Origin: a virus
Reading direction: 5' to 3' (one strand)
IMG/VR virus record: IMGVR_UViG_3300025648_000098
Coordinates: 1-22,167 of that record
DNA: 22,167 bases
Part shown: in pieces, positions 1,943 through 22,065 of the stretch
How positions within the stretch are numbered: position 1 is the stretch's first letter
Layout of the letters: each line of letters begins with the position of its first letter
Made by a program: the position numbers and the translations under genes
Notes under the pieces: generated by a model
Databases searched by the model: none
What the model saw: only the letters and a program-made list of their open reading frames with translations
Told to the model about the DNA's origin: nothing

Positions 1943-2209
1943 TTATACCTTTGTCTTTTTGGGCTTATCGTCGTCGTCATCATCTTCAAACTCATCAGGA
2001 AGAAACTCTCCATCTACCCATTTGTCAATGTGATTTTCCAACGCAAATCCGTTTCCATCTAACACCTCGCAGTGCTGAGTCTCTCCTTTATCGTCTACCC
2101 AGTTGATAAACAGAGCCATGTTTTCATAGTGTTCGGTAATTAAAGCAATTGCCTTATTTACAGCCTCCCAACCTTCCGCAGTTACATTATATGGTTTTGG
2201 GCGTTTCAC
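1943..2209 (-). CDS. Small acidic hypothetical protein after the lysozyme
   Basis: This 88-residue frame probably starts at a GTG, one base after the stop of the lysozyme gene, so translation is likely coupled. The first internal ATG is only at residue 31 and would remove the well-formed N-terminal helix. The body (residues 1-65) looks like a small soluble alpha/beta protein. The tail is extremely acidic, with a run of five Asp and neighbouring Glu, and ends in a short basic KPKKTKV. There is no signal peptide or membrane segment. I do not recognise the family. Its place at the end of the lysis set suggests lysis control or an accessory late role, but nothing in the sequence shows this. Confidence 0.65.
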   Translation of the reverse strand: MKRPKPYNVTAEGWEAVNKAIALITEHYENMALFINWVDDKGETQHCEVLDGNGFALENHIDKWVDGEFLPDEFEDDDDDDKPKKTKV

Positions 2210-2210
2210 C

Positions 2211-2696
2211 CTATGTGATATGCAGATATTTCACTAGGTCGTCGAGCCGATTATTCCAGCCAGCCAAGAATTTTTGGTCGTTAGGATGATTCTGAACAAT
2301 CAAAGAATTGACGCGCTTTTGGTCTTTGATAAATGCCATAGGATCTCGTCCTGTCCTGTCCAATATTCGATTGGCTTGAGCTTTTCCACATACGATCTTG
2401 CAGTTGAACCATATCTCACCTAGTGGGAATCTTAACTGCTCAACATTCAAGCGACTCCAGTTCGTCCAGTAAAGGTTTGTGGCCTGTTGCATAGTGAGAT
2501 TTCGTATGTCGTCCTCGGTTAGATTAAATGGCGGTTGACTGAACTCTCGGTAGTCACATCCCCACTTAGTCACACCGCCTGCATCACCCTGAACCTCTTC
2601 TGCTATGACATAGTTGTAGTCGCCATAATGCCCCTTTGCAAATTCGCATTCGTGCTCAAATATGAATGGCAGAAAATTCTTAAAACGAGGTGTCAT
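2211..2696 (-). CDS. Endolysin, GH108-type N-acetylmuramidase
   Basis: The 161-residue product matches the layout of glycoside hydrolase family 108 lysozymes, which cut the peptidoglycan glycan chain. The N-terminus carries the HE motif (H15-E16) where the family's catalytic Glu sits. GDAGGVTKWG at residues 37-46 corresponds to the family's DPGG-x-T-x-x-G motif, and the C-terminal GWNNRLDDL (146-154) to its GW-x-x-R segment. The usual EGGY is replaced by ECEF and about ten extra residues separate it from DAGG, so it is a divergent member. There is no signal peptide, so export would depend on a holin. The start overlaps the upstream membrane-protein gene by 17 bases. Length is typical of the family. 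The identification is from motifs only. Confidence 0.82.
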   Translation of the reverse strand: MTPRFKNFLPFIFEHECEFAKGHYGDYNYVIAEEVQGDAGGVTKWGCDYREFSQPPFNLTEDDIRNLTMQQATNLYWTNWSRLNVEQLRFPLGEIWFNCKIVCGKAQANRILDRTGRDPMAFIKDQKRVNSLIVQNHPNDQKFLAGWNNRLDDLVKYLHIT

Positions 2697-3069
2697 GTGA
2701 CATCAAATAGTCTTTTGGATCACGACGAAGTTCTGTAGTGTTAGATTCGTACTGAGGCAATGCCTGATTGCTTTCTATTCTTTCATTAGAATCCTGATCC
2801 ATGTGTTGAAGTGCCGATATTGCCTTCCAATCCATTGCGGCTTGTCCTGTGATTAGGGTTGTTGTTATCGCTCCGAAGAAAAGAACTACAAGATTCGCCA
2901 ATTCCACAATATCTTTTGCCACCTCTGCGTGGGTTAGTATCAAAAACGCAGAACCAATGAAAACAATCAGGACAGAAACCGAGGCAAAGATTGCATAGAT
3001 CGCTTTCTTTGAGCCAAGTGGCTTTTGCTCTAGCTTGTTCTTGACTACAGATGACCTAGAAGGCTCCAT
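2680..3069 (-). CDS. Two-helix membrane protein, holin candidate
   Basis: The 129-residue product has a basic N-terminus, then two hydrophobic segments at about residues 23-46 and 56-76 separated by a short acidic turn (HAEVAKDIVE), and a long polar C-terminus. This is the layout of small phage holins or antiholins, which form pores in the inner membrane and release the endolysin. The gene directly precedes the GH108 lysozyme and overlaps it by 17 bases; it overlaps the upstream membrane-protein gene by 25 bases. A second two-helix protein is encoded at 3667-3828, so one may be the holin and the other an antiholin or pinholin. The sequence does not decide which. Confidence 0.65.
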   Translation of the reverse strand: MEPSRSSVVKNKLEQKPLGSKKAIYAIFASVSVLIVFIGSAFLILTHAEVAKDIVELANLVVLFFGAITTTLITGQAAMDWKAISALQHMDQDSNERIESNQALPQYESNTTELRRDPKDYLMSHDTSF

Positions 3070-3482
3070 GCCGCCCCTCCTGCTACAATTCCAGCACCGA
3101 TAGAGATAAACCAGTCAGAGGCTAGTGCAGGAGGATAGAAGGCAAGGAGAATTGAAGAAAACCTCTGAATGCTAGCGAATACAATGAACCCAATGCAACT
3201 AGAGCAGATCAATAGCAATAGGTGGAAATGATGACGAACATCTGACAACTCTTTACGAGTGATGTCTAGTTGGTTTTCTGCTTCATTCAACTTTGCCGTC
3301 TGTGCGTTTACTGCATTTTGAACTACTTCTAGTTCTTGCTTTGCGGCAGACGCTTCATCTTGAGCTTGGTGGACTAGTTGACGCTGATGTTCAATCGTCT
3401 TGATAATGTCATTTTTAGTTATCGTTGTAGCTTGAACACCGACTGCCATGACAAATAAAATTGCTAATGCTATTCTTTTCAT
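3045..3482 (-). CDS. Coiled-coil membrane protein, inner-membrane spanin-like
   Basis: The 145-residue product starts with a basic, hydrophobic signal or anchor (MKRIALAILFVMAVGVQA), followed by a long Glu/Gln/Ala-rich coiled coil at about residues 25-82. Two further hydrophobic segments lie at about 86-106 and 122-143. An N-terminal anchor plus periplasmic coiled coil resembles an i-spanin, the inner-membrane half of the complex that fuses inner and outer membranes during lysis. A lipoprotein gene immediately upstream overlaps it by 4 bases, which supports the pairing. The two C-terminal membrane segments are unusual for an i-spanin, so it may be a fusion of spanin and holin functions or a different membrane protein. 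The function is inferred from layout and neighbours. Confidence 0.6.
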   Translation of the reverse strand: MKRIALAILFVMAVGVQATTITKNDIIKTIEHQRQLVHQAQDEASAAKQELEVVQNAVNAQTAKLNEAENQLDITRKELSDVRHHFHLLLLICSSCIGFIVFASIQRFSSILLAFYPPALASDWFISIGAGIVAGGAAWSLLGHL

Positions 3483-3670
3483 TTCTGTGTTTTAAGCCAT
3501 TGTTCGATAACGACTGACTTGCTGTCAACCGCAGAAAGATTTCCCTGAACCGCAGAAATATTGTCTACTGCTGGAGCTACTGAAATTGAAGATGGGACAT
3601 GCGTACAACCTCCTAGAATCATTAGTATTGTTCCTAGAAATGGAAGTAATGCGTCCCAAGTCTTTTTCAT
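3479..3670 (-). CDS. Small lipoprotein, outer-membrane spanin-like
   Basis: Starting at the ATG at 3670 gives 63 residues: MKK, a hydrophobic stretch, then a lipobox ending L19-G20-G21-C22. After lipid attachment at C22 the mature part is about 42 polar residues (THVPSSISVAP onward). Small lipoproteins of this kind beside a coiled-coil membrane protein are typical of o-spanins, which sit in the outer membrane. The frame stays open upstream to an ATG at 3733, but I prefer 3670. It places the signal at the N-terminus, and it makes a 4-base ATGA overlap with the stop of the small membrane gene at 3667-3828. A Gram-negative host is implied if the spanin reading is right. Confidence 0.65.
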   Translation of the reverse strand: MKKTWDALLPFLGTILMILGGCTHVPSSISVAPAVDNISAVQGNLSAVDSKSVVIEQWLKTQK

Positions 3671-3828
3671 TTGTGTGACTGCTTGATGATCGTTAGGACA
3701 GATGCCGTTGCTGATAGCAGGAGGCAGATCCATTGAGCAAGAGGAGGGACTTCAGGGACAAACGAGAATAACAAAAAGCTAGCACTTGTTGCGGCTCCGA
3801 GAAGTGGTGTTTGTCCAGAAGAGTGCAT
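3667..3828 (-). CDS. 53-residue two-helix membrane protein, second holin candidate
   Basis: A frame of 53 codons runs from ATG at 3828 to TGA at 3667-3669. The product begins MHSSGQTPLLGAATSAS and has two hydrophobic segments at about residues 9-25 and 30-47, joined by PEVPP and ending in a basic KQSHK. It fits its neighbours exactly. Its ATG shares one base with the TAA of the upstream gene (TAATG), and its stop overlaps the lipoprotein start as ATGA. Size, topology and position in the lysis set point to a holin or pinholin. Simple length cut-offs would miss it. Translation through perfect stop-start junctions is the main evidence that it is real. Confidence 0.68.
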   Translation of the reverse strand: MHSSGQTPLLGAATSASFLLFSFVPEVPPLAQWICLLLSATASVLTIIKQSHK

Positions 3829-4208
3829 TATGATGTAGGTGTTGTATCAGGATTGTCTAACATTACAATCCAAGTTTTTGTTTCTTCATCCCATAAATAC
3901 ATATTCCCATCAGTAGGGTATGGTTCAGGAGAATCCCATAAGTAAGTATTTTGATTCAAAGTCCAACTTGGAAAAGGTTGTGGTGCTGAAAAACCTATTC
4001 CATCCCAAGAATAACCAATTCCAGCATAATTTTTATTTAGCGCAATTCCTGCATCTGGATTTCCATCTTGCCCATAATGCACTCCTCCTCTTGTATTAAA
4101 TGATGTCTGAATCCATTCGGAAGCATTTGGTAAAGATTGGATATAATCTGATTCAGCAACAATTACCTGATCTACTAATCCTTCAGAAATGTGAGCAAAA
4201 TGTGCCAT
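3828..4208 (-). CDS. Conserved phage protein with MAHFA... N-terminus, fibre-associated
   Basis: The 126-residue product begins MAHFAHISEGLVDQVIVAE and contains WIQTSFNTRGG, KNYAGIGYSWD and two W-rich segments (PFPSWTLNQNTYLWDSPEPY and MYLWDEETKTW). I recognise this pattern from many cyanophage and other aquatic phage genomes, where it is annotated as hypothetical and usually sits near tail fibre genes. It has no signal or membrane segment and looks like a small beta-rich domain. Here it is placed between the glycine-rich adhesin (one base away) and the lysis set. A virion-tip or fibre-assembly role is inferred from that placement, not shown. Confidence 0.72.
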   Translation of the reverse strand: MAHFAHISEGLVDQVIVAESDYIQSLPNASEWIQTSFNTRGGVHYGQDGNPDAGIALNKNYAGIGYSWDGIGFSAPQPFPSWTLNQNTYLWDSPEPYPTDGNMYLWDEETKTWIVMLDNPDTTPTS

Positions 4209-4209
4209 A

Positions 4210-5115
4210 TTATGCTTTGTAATAAAGTGATGTTAAAAATGCAATAATTGTATTAGAACCATTAATAATTTTTGTATATTGAGTTCCTTGTGTTGCTGGA
4301 GTTGTTCCATTTGTAGTAATATTGGAATCTCCAGAATAATTTGCATTGGGAATGGATAAAACAACAATTCCAGAACCTCCAGAACCTCCAGTTGATGCTC
4401 CTCCAGCACCACCACCACCACCACCTGTATTAGCTAGACCAGAAGTTCCATTGGCATTGGTATTACCTTTTCCACCACCACCACCACCACCATTACCTCC
4501 AGTTCCAGCAGTACCTGAAGAACTATAATTTGCACCACCACCACCACCAGCAAGATAATATGTTGTGGAAACTAGTTGTCCTGCCGTTGATCCAGTAATG
4601 GGATTAGCAAGTCCAATTCCACCAGATCCAGAAATAAGAGTTCCTCCATTACCGCCAACTGCTCCTGCACCACCACCACCAGCGGCAGGATAGTTAGTTG
4701 CTGTTGCCGTTGAAAATCCTCCATTGTTTCCTTGCCCAGAAGGAGTTGCTAATCCTCCAATACCTGTAGATGAAGAAGAGCCTGCTCCACCACCTGATCC
4801 ACCATTACTTCCATTTGCTGCACCACTTCCTCCAGCTCCTCCACCACCATACGAAACAAACGATGCAAACGAAGTATTACTTCCAGTAGAACCAATTGTA
4901 GTACCACCATTTCCTCCACCTCCTATTGTTATAAGATAGGAAGTTCCTAGAGTTAAATTTGAATTTCCTGTTAAAAACCCTCCTGCACCACCACCACCAC
5001 CATCAGATGCACCACCACCACCACCTCCAGCAACTATTAAATAAGCAGTTGGGTATAAAACAGGAGGAGCTATTGAATTAACATCCAAAGCTAAAGCTAA
5101 ACCAAGGAATGGCAT
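4210..5115 (-). CDS. Glycine-rich virion adhesin candidate
   Basis: The 301-residue product starts with a short hydrophobic N-terminus (MPFLGLALALD), then AYLIVAGGGGGGASDGGGGG, then a body dominated by Gly runs of four to eight residues alternating with short Ser/Thr/Asn/Ala segments. The last 50 residues (from IVVLSIPNANYSG) are ordinary beta-like sequence. Long Gly runs separated by loops are known from phage receptor-binding adhesins such as the gp38 type, where they form polyglycine-II helices and the loops bind the receptor. The DNA carries GGT repeats, visible on the plus strand as ACC/CCA runs, which could change length in frame. It sits with other structural genes. The adhesin role is an inference from composition and context. 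Confidence 0.68.
   Translation of the reverse strand: MPFLGLALALDVNSIAPPVLYPTAYLIVAGGGGGGASDGGGGGAGGFLTGNSNLTLGTSYLITIGGGGNGGTTIGSTGSNTSFASFVSYGGGGAGGSGAANGSNGGSGGGAGSSSSTGIGGLATPSGQGNNGGFSTATATNYPAAGGGGAGAVGGNGGTLISGSGGIGLANPITGSTAGQLVSTTYYLAGGGGGANYSSSGTAGTGGNGGGGGGGKGNTNANGTSGLANTGGGGGGAGGASTGGSGGSGIVVLSIPNANYSGDSNITTNGTTPATQGTQYTKIINGSNTIIAFLTSLYYKA
4400..5035. repeat. GGT/ACC triplet runs inside the glycine-rich gene
   Basis: Several uninterrupted CCA/ACC runs (for example near 4408-4427, 4473-4492, 4535-4550 and 4988-5033 on the plus strand) code the Gly tracts with the same GGT codon. Use of one codon throughout makes the tracts true microsatellites that can slip in frame, rather than only a protein-level bias. 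Confidence 0.75.
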
Positions 5116-8373: not shown

Positions 8374-8409
8374 GGTGACCGATGCAAGTTTTATCCTGCA
8401 TCGATCACC
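8374..8409 (-). terminator. Strong hairpin between capsid gene and C1q-like gene
   Basis: GGTGACCGATGCA at 8374-8386 and TGCATCGATCACC at 8397-8409 form a 13-bp stem with a 10-base loop. On the minus-strand RNA the only non-Watson-Crick pair is a G-U wobble. It lies 16 bases after the capsid stop, the usual place for a late-gene attenuator. No U-tract follows it, so it may slow or partly stop polymerase or protect the capsid mRNA 3' end rather than act as a full intrinsic terminator. Confidence 0.6.
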
Positions 8410-8425
8410 GATAACTAACTACCTA

Positions 8426-9754
8426 TTACAGACCAGTCGAAGAGGTCGAGCAAGGAAGAGGCGCACCATCAAATGGGCAACGCTTGTACAAGACAGGAAC
8501 CACATTCTGTGGTCGAACTGGCTGGATAGCGCGTTGGATCTGATAGATGTGCTGACCGAAATCTCCGTAGAGATTGCAATCGTTGTCTCGGAAGTAAGTC
8601 CACTCAAGCTCACCCATAGCGAGTTGAGGAGCGAAACGGAATGTTCCCTCACCAACATACTGCTCTGGGACGAGACGCTTGAATGCGTCACCAGCGATGA
8701 CGAAACCAACTTCGTAGTTCGCGGCAACCCATGCTGGGTTACGGCGTTGAGCAAAGCCGTTTGTGACAGCCGAGCTAACGATAGGGTTGATCAGGACAAG
8801 GTTTCCGTTGCCGTCAAAACCAGAGGCGCGCAGAGGCTGTTGGTCGATACCAAAAGCGAAACCGCGATAGCCTTGGAACTGATAGCCACTGATGCTGTCC
8901 TCACCCAGCTTGAACGAACCAGCGGTCAAATAGAGGAGATCCTCTTTGACATCTGCGTCGTTGCGGATGTTTTCGATGGCGTCAGCGGAGAGCATGACTT
9001 GGAAGAACTCACCCTCTTTGGAGGCAAAAGGCTCTGCAAGCATCTCTTCACGAAGGAAGGTTCCGATGCGATAGAGCGTCTTGAAGTTCAGAGCAGAGTC
9101 AGGAAGAATCTGAGCGAACTTGGTGTTGATCTGTTGCATATCACCAGTGAGGTTGGCAGTGAAGGACTGGGTCGAATTGACCACATACTTCACACCAGAC
9201 TGGATGAGATACTGATAACGGATGTCAGCGTTGATGATCTGGAGGATGCTCTTCTCAAGGCTGACTTGAGCCTGAAGGTAAGAACCCTTAAACGCTGTGC
9301 GAGCTTGCTTGACGCAAATACGAGGGCCTGCGCCGCGAAGGGTCTGCAAGCTGAACTGGTACTCAGTCGAACCAACTTGGTCAGGAGTAGCACCGACGCC
9401 GCAAAGCGTAGTGTCATCGACGAAGGTTGGGGCGGCAAGAGAAGCGGCAGGCACTGCCATTTCCTCGACTACGCTACGGACAACATCCGAGACATTGGGA
9501 ATAGTTCCGCCGTCGATGGAGTTGATGTAGGGAGACTTACGAGCGAGAACTTTTGCGATCTGTCCGATGATGCGCGAAACATCCTTGGAAGCGAAGTTCT
9601 GGATCGTAGCAAGAGGAATACAATTGCTGAAGTTTGCGCTCGCGGTCGTGCTAGCTCCAAGATTGGAGTAATTGACTGGAGCCGTATCTGTGTTGGGGAT
9701 GTAACCGCTGTTTGCAACAGCAGAATTACTTACCCCAGTTCCTGTACTAGCCAT
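8426..9754 (-). CDS. Probable major capsid protein, HK97-fold type
   Basis: The 442-residue product has the size, composition and position of a phage major capsid protein. Residues 50-110 (ATIQNFASKDVSRIIGQIAK, then VSDVVRSVVEEMAVP) look like the helical arm. The middle carries FKTLYRIGTFLREEMLAEPF and VMLSADAIENIRNDAD, and the C-terminal half has NYEVGFVIAGDAFKRLVPEQ and LEWTYFRDNDCNLYGDFGQH, typical of capsid shells that cite an external scaffold. The tail has two Cys (KRCPFDGAPLPC). It follows the scaffold gene in transcription order, though five glycosyltransferase-like genes intervene. No protease is visible here. A long frame on the opposite strand covers the gene but has no family-like sequence. 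The HK97 fold is inferred from family knowledge, not demonstrated. Confidence 0.78.
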   Translation of the reverse strand: MASTGTGVSNSAVANSGYIPNTDTAPVNYSNLGASTTASANFSNCIPLATIQNFASKDVSRIIGQIAKVLARKSPYINSIDGGTIPNVSDVVRSVVEEMAVPAASLAAPTFVDDTTLCGVGATPDQVGSTEYQFSLQTLRGAGPRICVKQARTAFKGSYLQAQVSLEKSILQIINADIRYQYLIQSGVKYVVNSTQSFTANLTGDMQQINTKFAQILPDSALNFKTLYRIGTFLREEMLAEPFASKEGEFFQVMLSADAIENIRNDADVKEDLLYLTAGSFKLGEDSISGYQFQGYRGFAFGIDQQPLRASGFDGNGNLVLINPIVSSAVTNGFAQRRNPAWVAANYEVGFVIAGDAFKRLVPEQYVGEGTFRFAPQLAMGELEWTYFRDNDCNLYGDFGQHIYQIQRAIQPVRPQNVVPVLYKRCPFDGAPLPCSTSSTGL

Positions 9755-9933
9755 ATTATTTGGTTTGGTTGACTTGAAGGAGTCACAACCAATTGTGGTA
9801 GCGACAACCCCAAGGGTGTACGGATTTCGCGTGCGAAATCGATACGAAGTTTGGTTTGGTTATCGCTAGCGGCACGCTCTAGCTTTTGTTTGCGGCCTGT
9901 ATTAGTGAATGTTTGCGGCTTCCACCAAGCCAT
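9730..9933 (-). CDS. Possible 67-residue small protein before the capsid gene
   Basis: A frame from ATG at 9933 encodes MAWWKPQTFTNTGRKQKLER and about 47 more residues, ending 25 bases inside the capsid gene. An ATG two codons upstream (9939) and a GTG at 9954 are also possible starts. The N-terminal half is basic and helical-looking; the C-terminal half is hydrophobic with several Pro. I do not recognise it. It is the only frame that fills the 220 bases between the sugar cassette and the capsid gene. The same DNA also contains an inverted repeat at 9823-9840, so the region could instead be an untranslated leader of the capsid gene. Confidence 0.38.
   Translation of the reverse strand: MAWWKPQTFTNTGRKQKLERAASDNQTKLRIDFAREIRTPLGLSLPQLVVTPSSQPNQIIWLVQELG
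9823..9840. repeat. Perfect inverted repeat in the capsid leader region
   Basis: GATTTCGC and GCGAAATC are perfect complements separated by GT, about 70 bases upstream of the capsid start. It could be an operator, an mRNA stem or part of the small frame at 9730-9933. The tight two-base loop favours a protein-binding palindrome over an RNA hairpin. Confidence 0.4.
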
Positions 9934-11925: not shown

Positions 11926-12505
11926 CAGAGAGCGTATTCAACATAACCTGTGACCTGACTTCAAGCGTAGAACACTTTGCATGGTGAATTAATTTTAGAA
12001 TTTCATCCAAAGTATTTTCAATTCCAAGAACTTCAGACTCGTTAATTATTTTATTACCTTCTACAAGTGGCTCTTGAACAAATTTCTTTATCGCGTTAGC
12101 GCAATGCTCTTTGGTCGCATAAAAGATATATGCAGGCTCACCGCTATTTATGTGGAGAGTTCCATGATCTTCATAAGATTTTGCTATCTCTGGGGTGAAT
12201 TTCTTGTTTACCACATCGTAGTCGCTCATCCATCCACCACCTGCGGCATAGAGAGCGCACCAACGGATGAAGCGCGCGACAATCCAGTCAAACTTGTTGA
12301 GTAGTTCAGGATGTAGACCCATCGCGGTAGCCATGAGTTTTTGCTGGAGTTTGTTGTAGAGCGGACTTCCTAGAGCGTGGCTCCTGTTGAGCATGACTGG
12401 CTCCCAGCCTCTGTCTGTCCAGCTAGTCTTCCACCAGTTGGCGCAGGCGAATTCCTCGCCTTGCCTTGACTGGGCGATGTTCTGATAGTAGGCGTAGACT
12501 TTCAT
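11909..12505 (-). CDS. GT32-like glycosyltransferase with DxD motif
   Basis: The 198-residue product begins MKVYAYYQNIAQSRQGEEFA. Its core ARFIRWCALYAAGGGWMSDY places R78/R81, a G-G-G at 89-91 and D95-Y-D97. This is the hallmark R-x-x-x-L-x-x-x-G-G-x-Y/W-x-D-x-D of GT32 and related capsular polysaccharide enzymes, where the DxD chelates the metal and nucleotide sugar. The later part (HINSGEPAYIFYATKEHC) corresponds to the acceptor-side region. It shares one base with the end of the upstream gene at 12505 and overlaps the next by 17 bases. There is no membrane anchor, so it is probably cytoplasmic, acting before assembly or on soluble acceptors. Confidence 0.7.
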   Translation of the reverse strand: MKVYAYYQNIAQSRQGEEFACANWWKTSWTDRGWEPVMLNRSHALGSPLYNKLQQKLMATAMGLHPELLNKFDWIVARFIRWCALYAAGGGWMSDYDVVNKKFTPEIAKSYEDHGTLHINSGEPAYIFYATKEHCANAIKKFVQEPLVEGNKIINESEVLGIENTLDEILKLIHHAKCSTLEVRSQVMLNTLSDEKPI

Positions 12506-13575
12506 TAGTATGTCTTGTAGCCGACATGGAACACAGGAAGTCCAAGGTCGATGTGAGGTTGGTGTCCTGCTTGCCTTGCCCTGAGACAGAACGAAACATC
12601 CTCTCCCCTTGCGCTGTCGAATGGGCGGAAGTAATCGTATTCGTAGTCAGGGACATCAATCTTTAGGCTATCGCCAAACTTTTCTTTAATGTCGTTAAAT
12701 ACATTTCGGTGGACTAGCATACAGCCAGTTCCTACCCAATCGACTGGCACAATCGCATCTTCGTAGGCTTTTGCTCGCGGTGCTAGCAAAGGATCTGCGC
12801 ACATAATGGCTCCTCCCTCCTGACGACCGAAGTAAGCCGCGCCTACAAGGTTCTTTCCTGCGCCTATAAGCCTGTGTAGCAGGTGTCGTTGTAGCGGAAG
12901 GTCTCCTATCGCTCTAGCTCCCTGAACCCAGTACCTGAACCAAGCTGGGCGTCCGATTGATGGAATGATGTCATCGTCCATCATCAGTAGCCACTTGGCG
13001 TCTGTCTCAAGGAACTTGTGAGCGAGGCGGTTGCGAGAGTGTTCAATCTTCGCGTCACCGATACTCATGTCGAAGCGGATCTTATCTTTACCGAAGTCTA
13101 ATGCCATCGCCACATTGACGGCGGCAGTGACAGGATTAGAAGACTTATACCAAGGCCAACCAACAAAGATGTCGCGACCAGCAAACTCACAGCGGTACGA
13201 AGGTAACCCTTCTTTGGTTCGCGATTCGATGATTGTAGTAACTCTGACTGGCTCTGACTTTTCAATTGGCTGTTTTGGTTTTCTACCGCGCTTAACTGCT
13301 GTTTGGGGAATTCCAAGAACTTCATGCTCTAATCTGATTTCATCTGGAACTACAGGCCCATCTGCTAGCGTTTCTCCAGTTGGATATTCTGGTTCAGGTT
13401 CAGGTTCAGGTTCAGGCGTTGGTTCAGGCTGTGTCACAATAGGAACAACTGGAGCGACTGGTCTTCCGTCCAACCTGCGAGGAGGTGGGATCGGTGTCAT
13501 GAACGGATTCGGTGAGTCGGTAGCCTTCATTGTCCGCTCCTGCATGGGAGTGGAGATAGGATCAAGTATTGCCAT
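12505..13575 (-). CDS. GT2-like glycosyltransferase with disordered Pro/Glu-rich N-terminus
   Basis: The 356-residue product has two parts. Residues 1-110 are disordered: Pro-rich, with a PEPEPEPEPE run at 50-63 coded by GGTTCA repeats, then a basic KRGRKPK at 95-101. Residues 112-356 form a GT-A domain with KWLLMMDDDIIP (D200-D201-D202), VDWVGTGCMLVHRNVF at 278-293, GEDVSFCLRARQAG at 324-337 and a final VFHVG. The order DxD, acceptor loop, E-D, H matches GT2-type transferases. It is the first gene of the sugar cassette, 2 bases after the scaffold stop, and shares the CATAATT-ATG start context with the portal gene. Its base composition looks closer to the head genes than that of the four genes downstream. 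Confidence 0.7.
   Translation of the reverse strand: MAILDPISTPMQERTMKATDSPNPFMTPIPPPRRLDGRPVAPVVPIVTQPEPTPEPEPEPEPEYPTGETLADGPVVPDEIRLEHEVLGIPQTAVKRGRKPKQPIEKSEPVRVTTIIESRTKEGLPSYRCEFAGRDIFVGWPWYKSSNPVTAAVNVAMALDFGKDKIRFDMSIGDAKIEHSRNRLAHKFLETDAKWLLMMDDDIIPSIGRPAWFRYWVQGARAIGDLPLQRHLLHRLIGAGKNLVGAAYFGRQEGGAIMCADPLLAPRAKAYEDAIVPVDWVGTGCMLVHRNVFNDIKEKFGDSLKIDVPDYEYDYFRPFDSARGEDVSFCLRARQAGHQPHIDLGLPVFHVGYKTY
13391..13426. repeat. Hexanucleotide repeat coding a Pro-Glu run
   Basis: GGTTCA is repeated four times in tandem at 13391-13414, with a further copy at 13421-13426. On the coding strand this gives alternating Pro-Glu codons in the disordered part of the first glycosyltransferase. Copy change would alter linker length by two residues without a frameshift. 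Confidence 0.75.
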
Positions 13576-21839: not shown

Positions 21840-21916
21840 TGGCACAGCCTGTTGGAATCGAACCAACCCAGATGGATTTGGAGTCCTTCTCGCCCAGCCT
21901 TGGAACATGAGACTGC
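21840..21916 (-). tRNA. tRNA-Trp (CCA), atypical D-arm
   Basis: A 77-base cloverleaf can be drawn on the minus strand. The acceptor GCAGTCT pairs fully with AGGCTGT (two G-U), the T-arm GTTGG-TTCGATT-CCAAC is perfect, the anticodon loop CTCCAAA gives CCA at 21879-21881, discriminator G73 is the usual one for Trp, and the 3' CCA is encoded. The anticodon stem AAGGA/TCCAT has one A-A mismatch. The D-arm does not fit: GTTC/GGGC with a GG-containing loop is possible only with an extra base on each side. It may be a decaying or unusually folded tRNA. Confidence 0.6.
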
Positions 21917-21959
21917 AATACAAATCCTATGCATTTATCAAAAAGTGTCAAGCCTTTGT

Positions 21960-21986
21960 AAACTCCCTAAACTCCCTAAACTCCCT
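21960..21986. repeat. Three tandem copies of a 9-bp unit
   Basis: AAACTCCCT is repeated three times without mismatch between the two tRNA genes. On the transcribed strand it reads AGGGAGTTT. It lies just after the tRNA-Gln 3' end and may be a processing spacer or a slippage product. Confidence 0.85.
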
Positions 21987-21991
21987 ATAAT

Positions 21992-22065
21992 TGGCTACCC
22001 CTCATGGACTTGAACCATGACAAACAGAGTCAAAGTCTGTTGTGCTACCATTACACCAAAGGGTA
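21992..22065 (-). tRNA. tRNA-Gln (UUG)
   Basis: The 74-base minus-strand sequence folds as a normal tRNA: acceptor TACCCTT/AGGGGTA (one T-G), D-arm GTGT-AATGGTA-GCAC, anticodon arm ACAGA-CTTTGAC-TCTGT with anticodon TTG, variable loop TTGT, T-arm CATGG-TTCAAGT-CCATG, G73 and an encoded CCA. TTG reads CAA, a Gln codon. All arms are intact, so it is likely functional. Phage tRNAs usually offset codon-use differences from the host or replace cleaved host tRNAs. Confidence 0.93.

Follow-up and report, generated by a model that had tools for sequence, protein, structure and literature searches.

The window analysed here, by which we mean the whole 22,167-base virus record IMGVR_UViG_3300025648_000098, carries on its minus strand a run of genes that are transcribed in the order 126-residue gene, 53-residue gene, 63-residue lipoprotein, 145-residue coiled-coil protein, 129-residue protein and 161-residue endolysin (Table 1). 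Judging by the IMG sample numbers that their contigs are named after, these phages are presumably from fresh water. The original prediction for this DNA had placed a dense lysis set of membrane or lipid-linked proteins and a lysozyme at 3045-4208, with its genes joined by TAATG and ATGA junctions. As a reading of the sequence such a lysis set stands, and three of the five junctions are of the proposed kind, TAATG between the 126- and 53-residue genes and ATGA both between the 53-residue and lipoprotein genes and between the lipoprotein and coiled-coil genes; the other two are longer overlaps, of 25 nt (coiled-coil and 129-residue genes) and 17 nt (129-residue and endolysin genes). The frames in the proposed range are present and overlapping, but that range takes in the 126-residue gene and omits the lysozyme and nearly all of the 129-residue gene.

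Table 1. Genes and predicted features of the lysis region, in order of transcription.
Feature	Coordinates	Strand	Basis or remark
126-aa gene	3828-4208	-	matches PHROG 7759 (unknown function); not evidently lytic
53-aa two-TM membrane protein, holin candidate 1	3667-3828	-	small two-TM type upstream of spanin genes
63-aa lipoprotein, predicted outer-membrane subunit of split spanin	3479-3670	-	lipobox LGG/C at residue 22
lipoprotein leader, residues 1-21	3608-3670	-	DNA similarity to fused-form phage ends inside leader
145-aa coiled-coil protein, predicted inner-membrane subunit, C-terminally anchored	3045-3482	-	F2 homology and AlphaFold model
signal-peptide-like N-terminus of coiled-coil protein, residues 1-18, VQA/TT	3429-3482	-	alignment; cleavage inferred
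periplasmic helical segment of coiled-coil protein, about 63 aa, no Cys	3240-3428	-	first part most conserved, candidate lipoprotein docking site
C-terminal hairpin, two TM helices, about residues 87-108 and 121-144	3051-3224	-	hydropathy, model break at residues 116-120, F2 C-terminus homology
129-aa two-TM membrane protein, holin candidate 2	2680-3069	-	anchor gene for locus comparison
GH108-like endolysin, 161 aa, no signal peptide seen	2211-2696	-	PF05838 and PHROG 315 matches

The 53-residue gene

The original prediction treated the 53-residue frame as a real gene that fixes the start of the lipoprotein gene, and held that disruption of the frame in close relatives would speak against it. 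We looked for such disruption with a tblastn search of the protein against all collected loci. None of the 55 matching loci, which overlap and amount to 14 distinct contigs among the 66 loci anchored on the 129-residue gene, has an internal stop; 53 of them cover the protein nearly whole, and the remaining two lie at a contig end (L209) or are a remote partial match (L079). Nucleotide differences from the window within the gene are all synonymous in two relatives (13 synonymous to 0 nonsynonymous for L159 and 12 to 0 for L173), and the corresponding counts are 13 to 3 for L220, 18 to 2 for L001 and 25.5 to 22.5 for L163; this comparison took in open frames only, stops being assessed separately by the tblastn search. 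The gene is under purifying selection in close pairs, which together with the absence of stops rules out a chance open reading frame. The proposed effect on the lipoprotein start was also borne out. Although the longest open frame of the lipoprotein starts at 3733, we place the start at the internal ATG (3670), because this ATG forms the ATGA overlap with the 53-residue gene and because the open frame of loci L008 and L012 begins exactly there.

Neither Pfam nor PHROG matches the 53-residue protein at E up to 1. Small two-TM proteins of 47-67 residues that lie upstream of spanin genes fall into three types, which we call by their motifs EVPP (47-53 residues), EVGSTSAIVS (60-61 residues) and DPxLDLELR (65-67 residues); members of the latter two are 12-26% identical to the window's 53-residue protein, and a single type can pair with different spanin forms.

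Split and fused forms at one site

Relatives were found in IMG/VR for the coiled-coil protein (7 loci), the 129-residue protein (29) and the endolysin (7), several of them on common contigs. The site between the small two-TM gene and the 129-residue gene holds one of three forms. The S form, which is that of the window, consists of a short lipoprotein and a coiled-coil protein with a signal-peptide-like start and two C-terminal TM helices; the F1 and F2 forms are each a single protein with a lipobox and a helical stretch, followed by one C-terminal TM helix in F1 and by two in F2. Profile scans gave 21 loci for S and 8 for F2, one of which (L070) is S-like on reading; for F1 the best 80 of 110 relatives were kept.

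Alignment of the S and F2 profiles with hhalign (15 and 9 sequences) gave Prob 99.4 and E 3.6e-21 over 104 columns that span the periplasmic helix and both TM helices, so that the window's coiled-coil protein matches residues 56-162 of the F2 profile; with only 6 and 4 sequences the result was Prob 98.4 and E 4.9e-15. Since coiled coils and TM helices can match by composition alone, we compared the scores with those of shuffled alignments in which columns were permuted within the leader, periplasmic and TM segments. The S-F2 score was 126.2, against a maximum of 36.5 in 200 such shuffles; F1 scored 39.9 against S (maximum of 200 shuffles 22.8) and 55.0 against F2 (maximum 26.3). By these profile comparisons the coiled-coil halves of the split and fused forms are of common descent. 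L070 bridges the forms, in that it combines an S-type start with the GERDWWQND block of F2 and a separate lipoprotein.

In Pfam and PHROG, the scanned S, F1 and F2 proteins match nothing better than about E 3e-4, the lipoprotein has no match in PHROGs, and a search of solved structures gave nothing better than E 0.19. No match to the 129-residue, coiled-coil or 53-residue proteins or to two F1 proteins was found by tblastn among 50,697 isolate phage records, and in a DNA search of isolate phage records with positions 2200-4300 only the 126-residue neighbour matched.

To avoid selecting loci by their spanin form, we collected them by the 129-residue gene, which gave 66 loci in addition to the window, six of them with next to no upstream sequence. 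Each of the 61 classified loci holds one form (24 S, 28 F1 and 9 F2, assigned by hand from profile matches). All 23 testable S records carry a separate lipoprotein (L166, whose sequence breaks off immediately upstream, was left out), and it was found in 0 of 37 fused loci over the available stretch of up to 3 kb upstream (under 600 bases in four); these counts are not independent, because many contigs are near-copies of one another. When 15 fused records were searched whole, 11 had no lipoprotein match and four matched only in their own fused leader, so that none of the 15 has a separate gene. In a partly overlapping set, a lipobox motif detector reported another lipoprotein-like open frame within the range scanned in 0 of 87 fused and 15 of 21 S loci. 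The other six S loci do have the lipoprotein by whole-record search, but not adjoining the coiled-coil gene: in five it lies 1.2-4 kb upstream with other open frames between, and G002 has it at the opposite end of the contig, a position that would count as upstream only in a circular or permuted genome. For nine of the 87 fused loci the detector did not report the lipobox of the fused protein itself (three are cut off and six fell to thresholds), and in those six, two of them duplicates, a lipobox is visible on reading.

We also looked for an Rz1-like lipoprotein embedded in the coiled-coil gene, among plus-strand frames whose ends fall between 700 bases ahead of the gene and 900 bases beyond its stop; the window and other S loci gave only the upstream lipoprotein or nothing, and this arrangement was rejected. 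At two S loci whose lipoprotein is not adjacent (L051 and L052), a sigma-70-like promoter, TTGAGT-17 nt-TATAAG, can be seen by eye upstream of the coiled-coil gene. The open frames before the coiled-coil gene in L052, L055 and L157 are rich in VARLRE-type text.

On the best tree of the 129-residue protein (50 rows) the distribution of forms needs 15 changes, and strongly supported branches force at least five for S. Independent pairs on this tree number five, all agreeing (p 0.0625), although five pairs cannot reach 0.05; lipoprotein presence was entered here from the searches described above. A tree of the coiled-coil parts, in which L174 stood in a wrong frame and L070 was truncated, supports none of our claims. 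Natural swaps can also be read directly from DNA. L014 (split) and L083 (fused, F1) are 94.7% identical over the small gene and leader up to about six codons after the lipobox cysteine, and 91.1% identical again from inside the 129-residue gene onward; the middle holds, in L014, what remains of the split pair and, in L083, what remains of the fused gene together with an HNH-like gene. The window and L035 are likewise 90.8% identical over the 53-residue gene and part of the leader, to about 3648, after which the one is split and the other fused; their identity in the 129-residue gene is weaker (69.3%). For forms that substitute for one another within an operon in this way, the simplest reading is that they share one function.

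These observations bear on a quite different account, by which the coiled-coil protein regulates lysis in the manner of a holin or antiholin and the lipoprotein is a product of its own, for example a superinfection-exclusion lipoprotein. The TM hairpin and the position between two small membrane proteins would suit a regulator, and fused members weakly match the PHROG of the Cor superinfection-exclusion protein (three of nine, best E 0.017), while in the same search Rz-like spanin PHROGs match up to four of nine (best E 0.0081). Such a regulator would leave unexplained both the swaps with single fused proteins and the presence of the lipoprotein where the coiled-coil protein has no lipobox (23 of 23 records, and 0 of 37 fused ones), and we regard this account as improbable.

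The split pair as a predicted spanin

We judge it quite probable, from the sequence comparisons, that the lipoprotein and the coiled-coil protein are instead the two halves of a split spanin that fuses inner and outer membrane as the last step of lysis. By the motif detector, the lipoprotein has a mature part of 42 residues after its lipobox, and no cysteine beyond the lipobox was found in eight of eight lipoproteins. Its C-terminal half (QGNLSAVDxKxVVxExWLK) is strongly conserved among six aligned sequences. With its signal included, it aligned to the start of F2 at Prob 84.5; the mature part alone, with L070 included, scored 23.4 against the F2 N-terminus, above all of 300 shuffles (maximum 16.1), and without this bridge sequence 13.1 (E 0.04). 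The lipoprotein halves and the fused N-termini thus likely share descent, a grade that we keep at likely because significance needs L070 in the alignment. The lipoprotein stands in for the N-terminal, lipidated part of the fused protein.

The coiled-coil protein itself has no lipobox, the lipoprotein being a separate gene. Its N-terminal stretch, as read from the alignment, resembles a cleavable signal ending in VQA, and a C-terminal TMD is present by hydropathy and in the model. The AlphaFold model is all-helical (residues 2-18, 23-115 and 121-144; pLDDT 71.5, pTM 0.29), and that of the F2 protein of L015 has helices at 4-18, 30-48, 52-137 and 141-162 (pLDDT 73.9, pTM 0.36); the confidence of both models is moderate. 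The helix break of the F2 model at 49-51 lies near residue 56, where the homology to S begins. Heptad or helix periodicity was significant in two of seven S, four of five F2 and five of five F1 proteins tested.

The original prediction had remarked that the coiled-coil protein has extra C-terminal membrane helices not expected in an i-spanin, and that the lysis mechanism may therefore differ from textbook types. The helices were indeed found, and are conserved. According to the profile alignment, these "extra" helices are homologous to the C-terminal inner-membrane anchor of the fused proteins that relatives carry at this locus and that resemble u-spanins, and as a sequence-based reading the suggestion of an unusual mechanism holds as well. 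The fused relatives have a lipobox, so their helix is predicted to be periplasmic, and by homology that of the window as well, which makes the C-terminal hairpin the predicted inner-membrane anchor. The inner subunit therefore probably has its anchor at the C-terminus, the reverse of the arrangement in lambda Rz. Positive charges before TM1, assessed by eye, do not alone favour an N-out orientation, and if the N-terminus is uncleaved, the protein would be anchored N-terminally too.

Nearly invariant columns of the S coiled-coil protein are concentrated just past the signal-like stretch (14 of 23 at residues 18-40, compared with 6 of 46 at 41-86 and 11 of 59 at 87-145). This conserved mature N-terminus (T-I-T-K-x-D-I-I-x-T-x-E-H) lies outside the F2 match except for its end, and it and the conserved C-terminal half of the lipoprotein form a candidate interface. 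By a hydropathy cut, the mature periplasmic lengths are 41-43 residues for the lipoprotein and 63-66 for the coiled-coil protein, and 88-93 for F2 and 73-99 for F1. The split pieces sum to somewhat more than the F2 length, which would follow if they overlapped where they dock. No periplasmic cysteine was found in 15 coiled-coil, 9 F2 or 64 F1 proteins.

Kongari et al. (2018; PMC6139136) give a periplasmic cysteine in 507 of 528 two-component spanins and in 0 of 58 u-spanins, describe u-spanins as thought to have an independent origin, with no detectable similarity to o-spanins, and name an i-spanin with a C-terminal TMD (type I, N-out, C-in) as a possibility outside that survey's criteria. An ordinary two-component spanin would here be made up of an Rz-like i-spanin with an uncleaved N-terminal TM helix, whose hairpin has no spanin role, and of the lipoprotein as an ordinary o-spanin. 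We consider this unlikely, if the least so of the alternatives. It agrees with the N-terminal hydrophobic stretch followed by a coiled coil, and with weak matches to Rz-like spanin PHROGs (E 0.012, 0.023 and 0.13 for the window protein and 0.046 for that of L018). However, the hairpin that it leaves without a role is conserved and homologous to the sole inner-membrane anchor that F2 has, the cysteine typical of the published two-component spanins is missing from the periplasmic part, and a protein held in the inner membrane at both ends could meet the lipoprotein only if its helix of about 63 residues doubled back.

Under the split-spanin reading we infer localisation, processing, docking and membrane fusion as follows. 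The lipoprotein, once lipidated, would go to the outer membrane. An N-terminal signal would direct export of the coiled-coil protein, whose helix would lie in the periplasm and whose C-terminal two-helix hairpin would hold it in the inner membrane (N-out, opposite to Rz). The mature N-terminus of this protein probably docks on the lipoprotein's C-terminal half, which would restore the bridge for which relatives use a fused protein. After release of the endolysin by the holin or holins and cleavage of the wall, the bridge would collapse and the membranes be joined. In grading this reading we counted against it the dependence of the lipoprotein similarity on L070, the weak periodicity of S proteins, the moderate models, the small number of independent pairs, the near-copies among the contigs and the nonadjacent lipoproteins.

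The pair has traits of several known or proposed systems. Like the unimolecular spanin T1 gp11 it has a C-terminal TM anchor, no periplasmic cysteine and a place in the lysis cassette, and its fused relatives F1 and F2 share with T1 gp11 a lipobox and a C-terminal TM; unlike T1 gp11 it is divided over two genes, with the lipobox outside the TMD protein, and whereas T1 gp11 is described as mainly beta (PMC6139136), the periplasmic parts of the window protein and the F2 protein of L015 are modelled as all-helical. With two-component spanins (lambda Rz/Rz1, T4 PseT.3/PseT.2) it shares overlapping adjacent genes for a lipoprotein and an inner-membrane protein with a periplasmic helix, but its inner subunit begins with a signal-like stretch and ends in a TM hairpin, in place of an N-terminal TM alone, and the pair is without periplasmic cysteines. 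The hypothetical type I i-spanin would likewise have a C-terminal anchor and a lipoprotein partner; the window protein differs from it in having two TM helices, by which its C-terminus would be periplasmic, and in its sequence evidence of descent shared with fused proteins. If our reading is right, the window pair works like a spanin yet meets the full definition of neither class.

The two known spanin designs seem to be related in these phages, because the two-piece bridge predicted for the window is one fused protein in relatives. We lean, with some reserve, towards a broader statement: that both spanin classes are here one homologous system which switches between one gene and two at a single locus, the window protein being C-terminally anchored and the split form having specific docking segments on both sides. 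A search of the open-access literature found no description of homologous split and fused spanins or of a natural C-terminally anchored i-spanin, a topology that appears there only as a proposal. Split and fused homologues that replace each other in nature would, if true, connect the two spanin classes, and, as naturally occurring matched alleles, they could be used to ask for the minimum that a spanin requires for membrane fusion: a continuous polypeptide or a docked bridge, helix or sheet, a disulfide or none.

Holin candidates, endolysin and other features of the window

The endolysin matches the endolysin family PHROG 315 at E 5.4e-11 and PF05838 at E 0.0011 (19.9 bits, gathering cut-off 21.2); since it has no visible signal peptide, a holin is expected. 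The 53- and 129-residue two-helix proteins are both candidates for this role, and a small two-helix protein and the 129-residue two-helix protein both recur beside the spanin in relatives. The 129-residue protein has no convincing Pfam or PHROG family match. It has 66 related loci in viral contigs, and a scan of genome contigs with its profile for a host or prophage gave 47 pattern matches, none of them confirmed. The order small TM gene, spanin-like gene or genes, 129-residue gene and endolysin recurs in relatives. Genes that look HNH-endonuclease-like by their motif occur inside the lysis cassette of some of them, in the endolysin position in L018, L022 and L209 and between the spanin and 129-residue genes in L025, L083 and L202.

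The upstream neighbour genes look structural or fibre-like, which might suggest that the whole set is not lytic and consists, for example, of envelope-modifying or virion genes. This we hold to be very improbable, given that the endolysin overlaps the 129-residue gene in the window and that the cassette order recurs, even though an HNH-like gene replaces the endolysin in some relatives.

A promoter scan of the window gave no clear excess over shuffled sequence (11 against a mean of 8.9, sd 3.2). Elsewhere in the window, a 465-residue open frame at 8375-9772 (plus strand) lies antisense to a 442-residue frame at 8426-9754 (minus strand), the latter without a family match. The gene at 12505-13575, within a structural-looking block, has a weak match to a glycosyltransferase PHROG (E 0.0064) and a better one to a PHROG of unknown function (E 6.8e-8). 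Finally, the minus strand at 21840-22065 carries genes for tRNA-Trp (cca) and tRNA-Gln (ttg).
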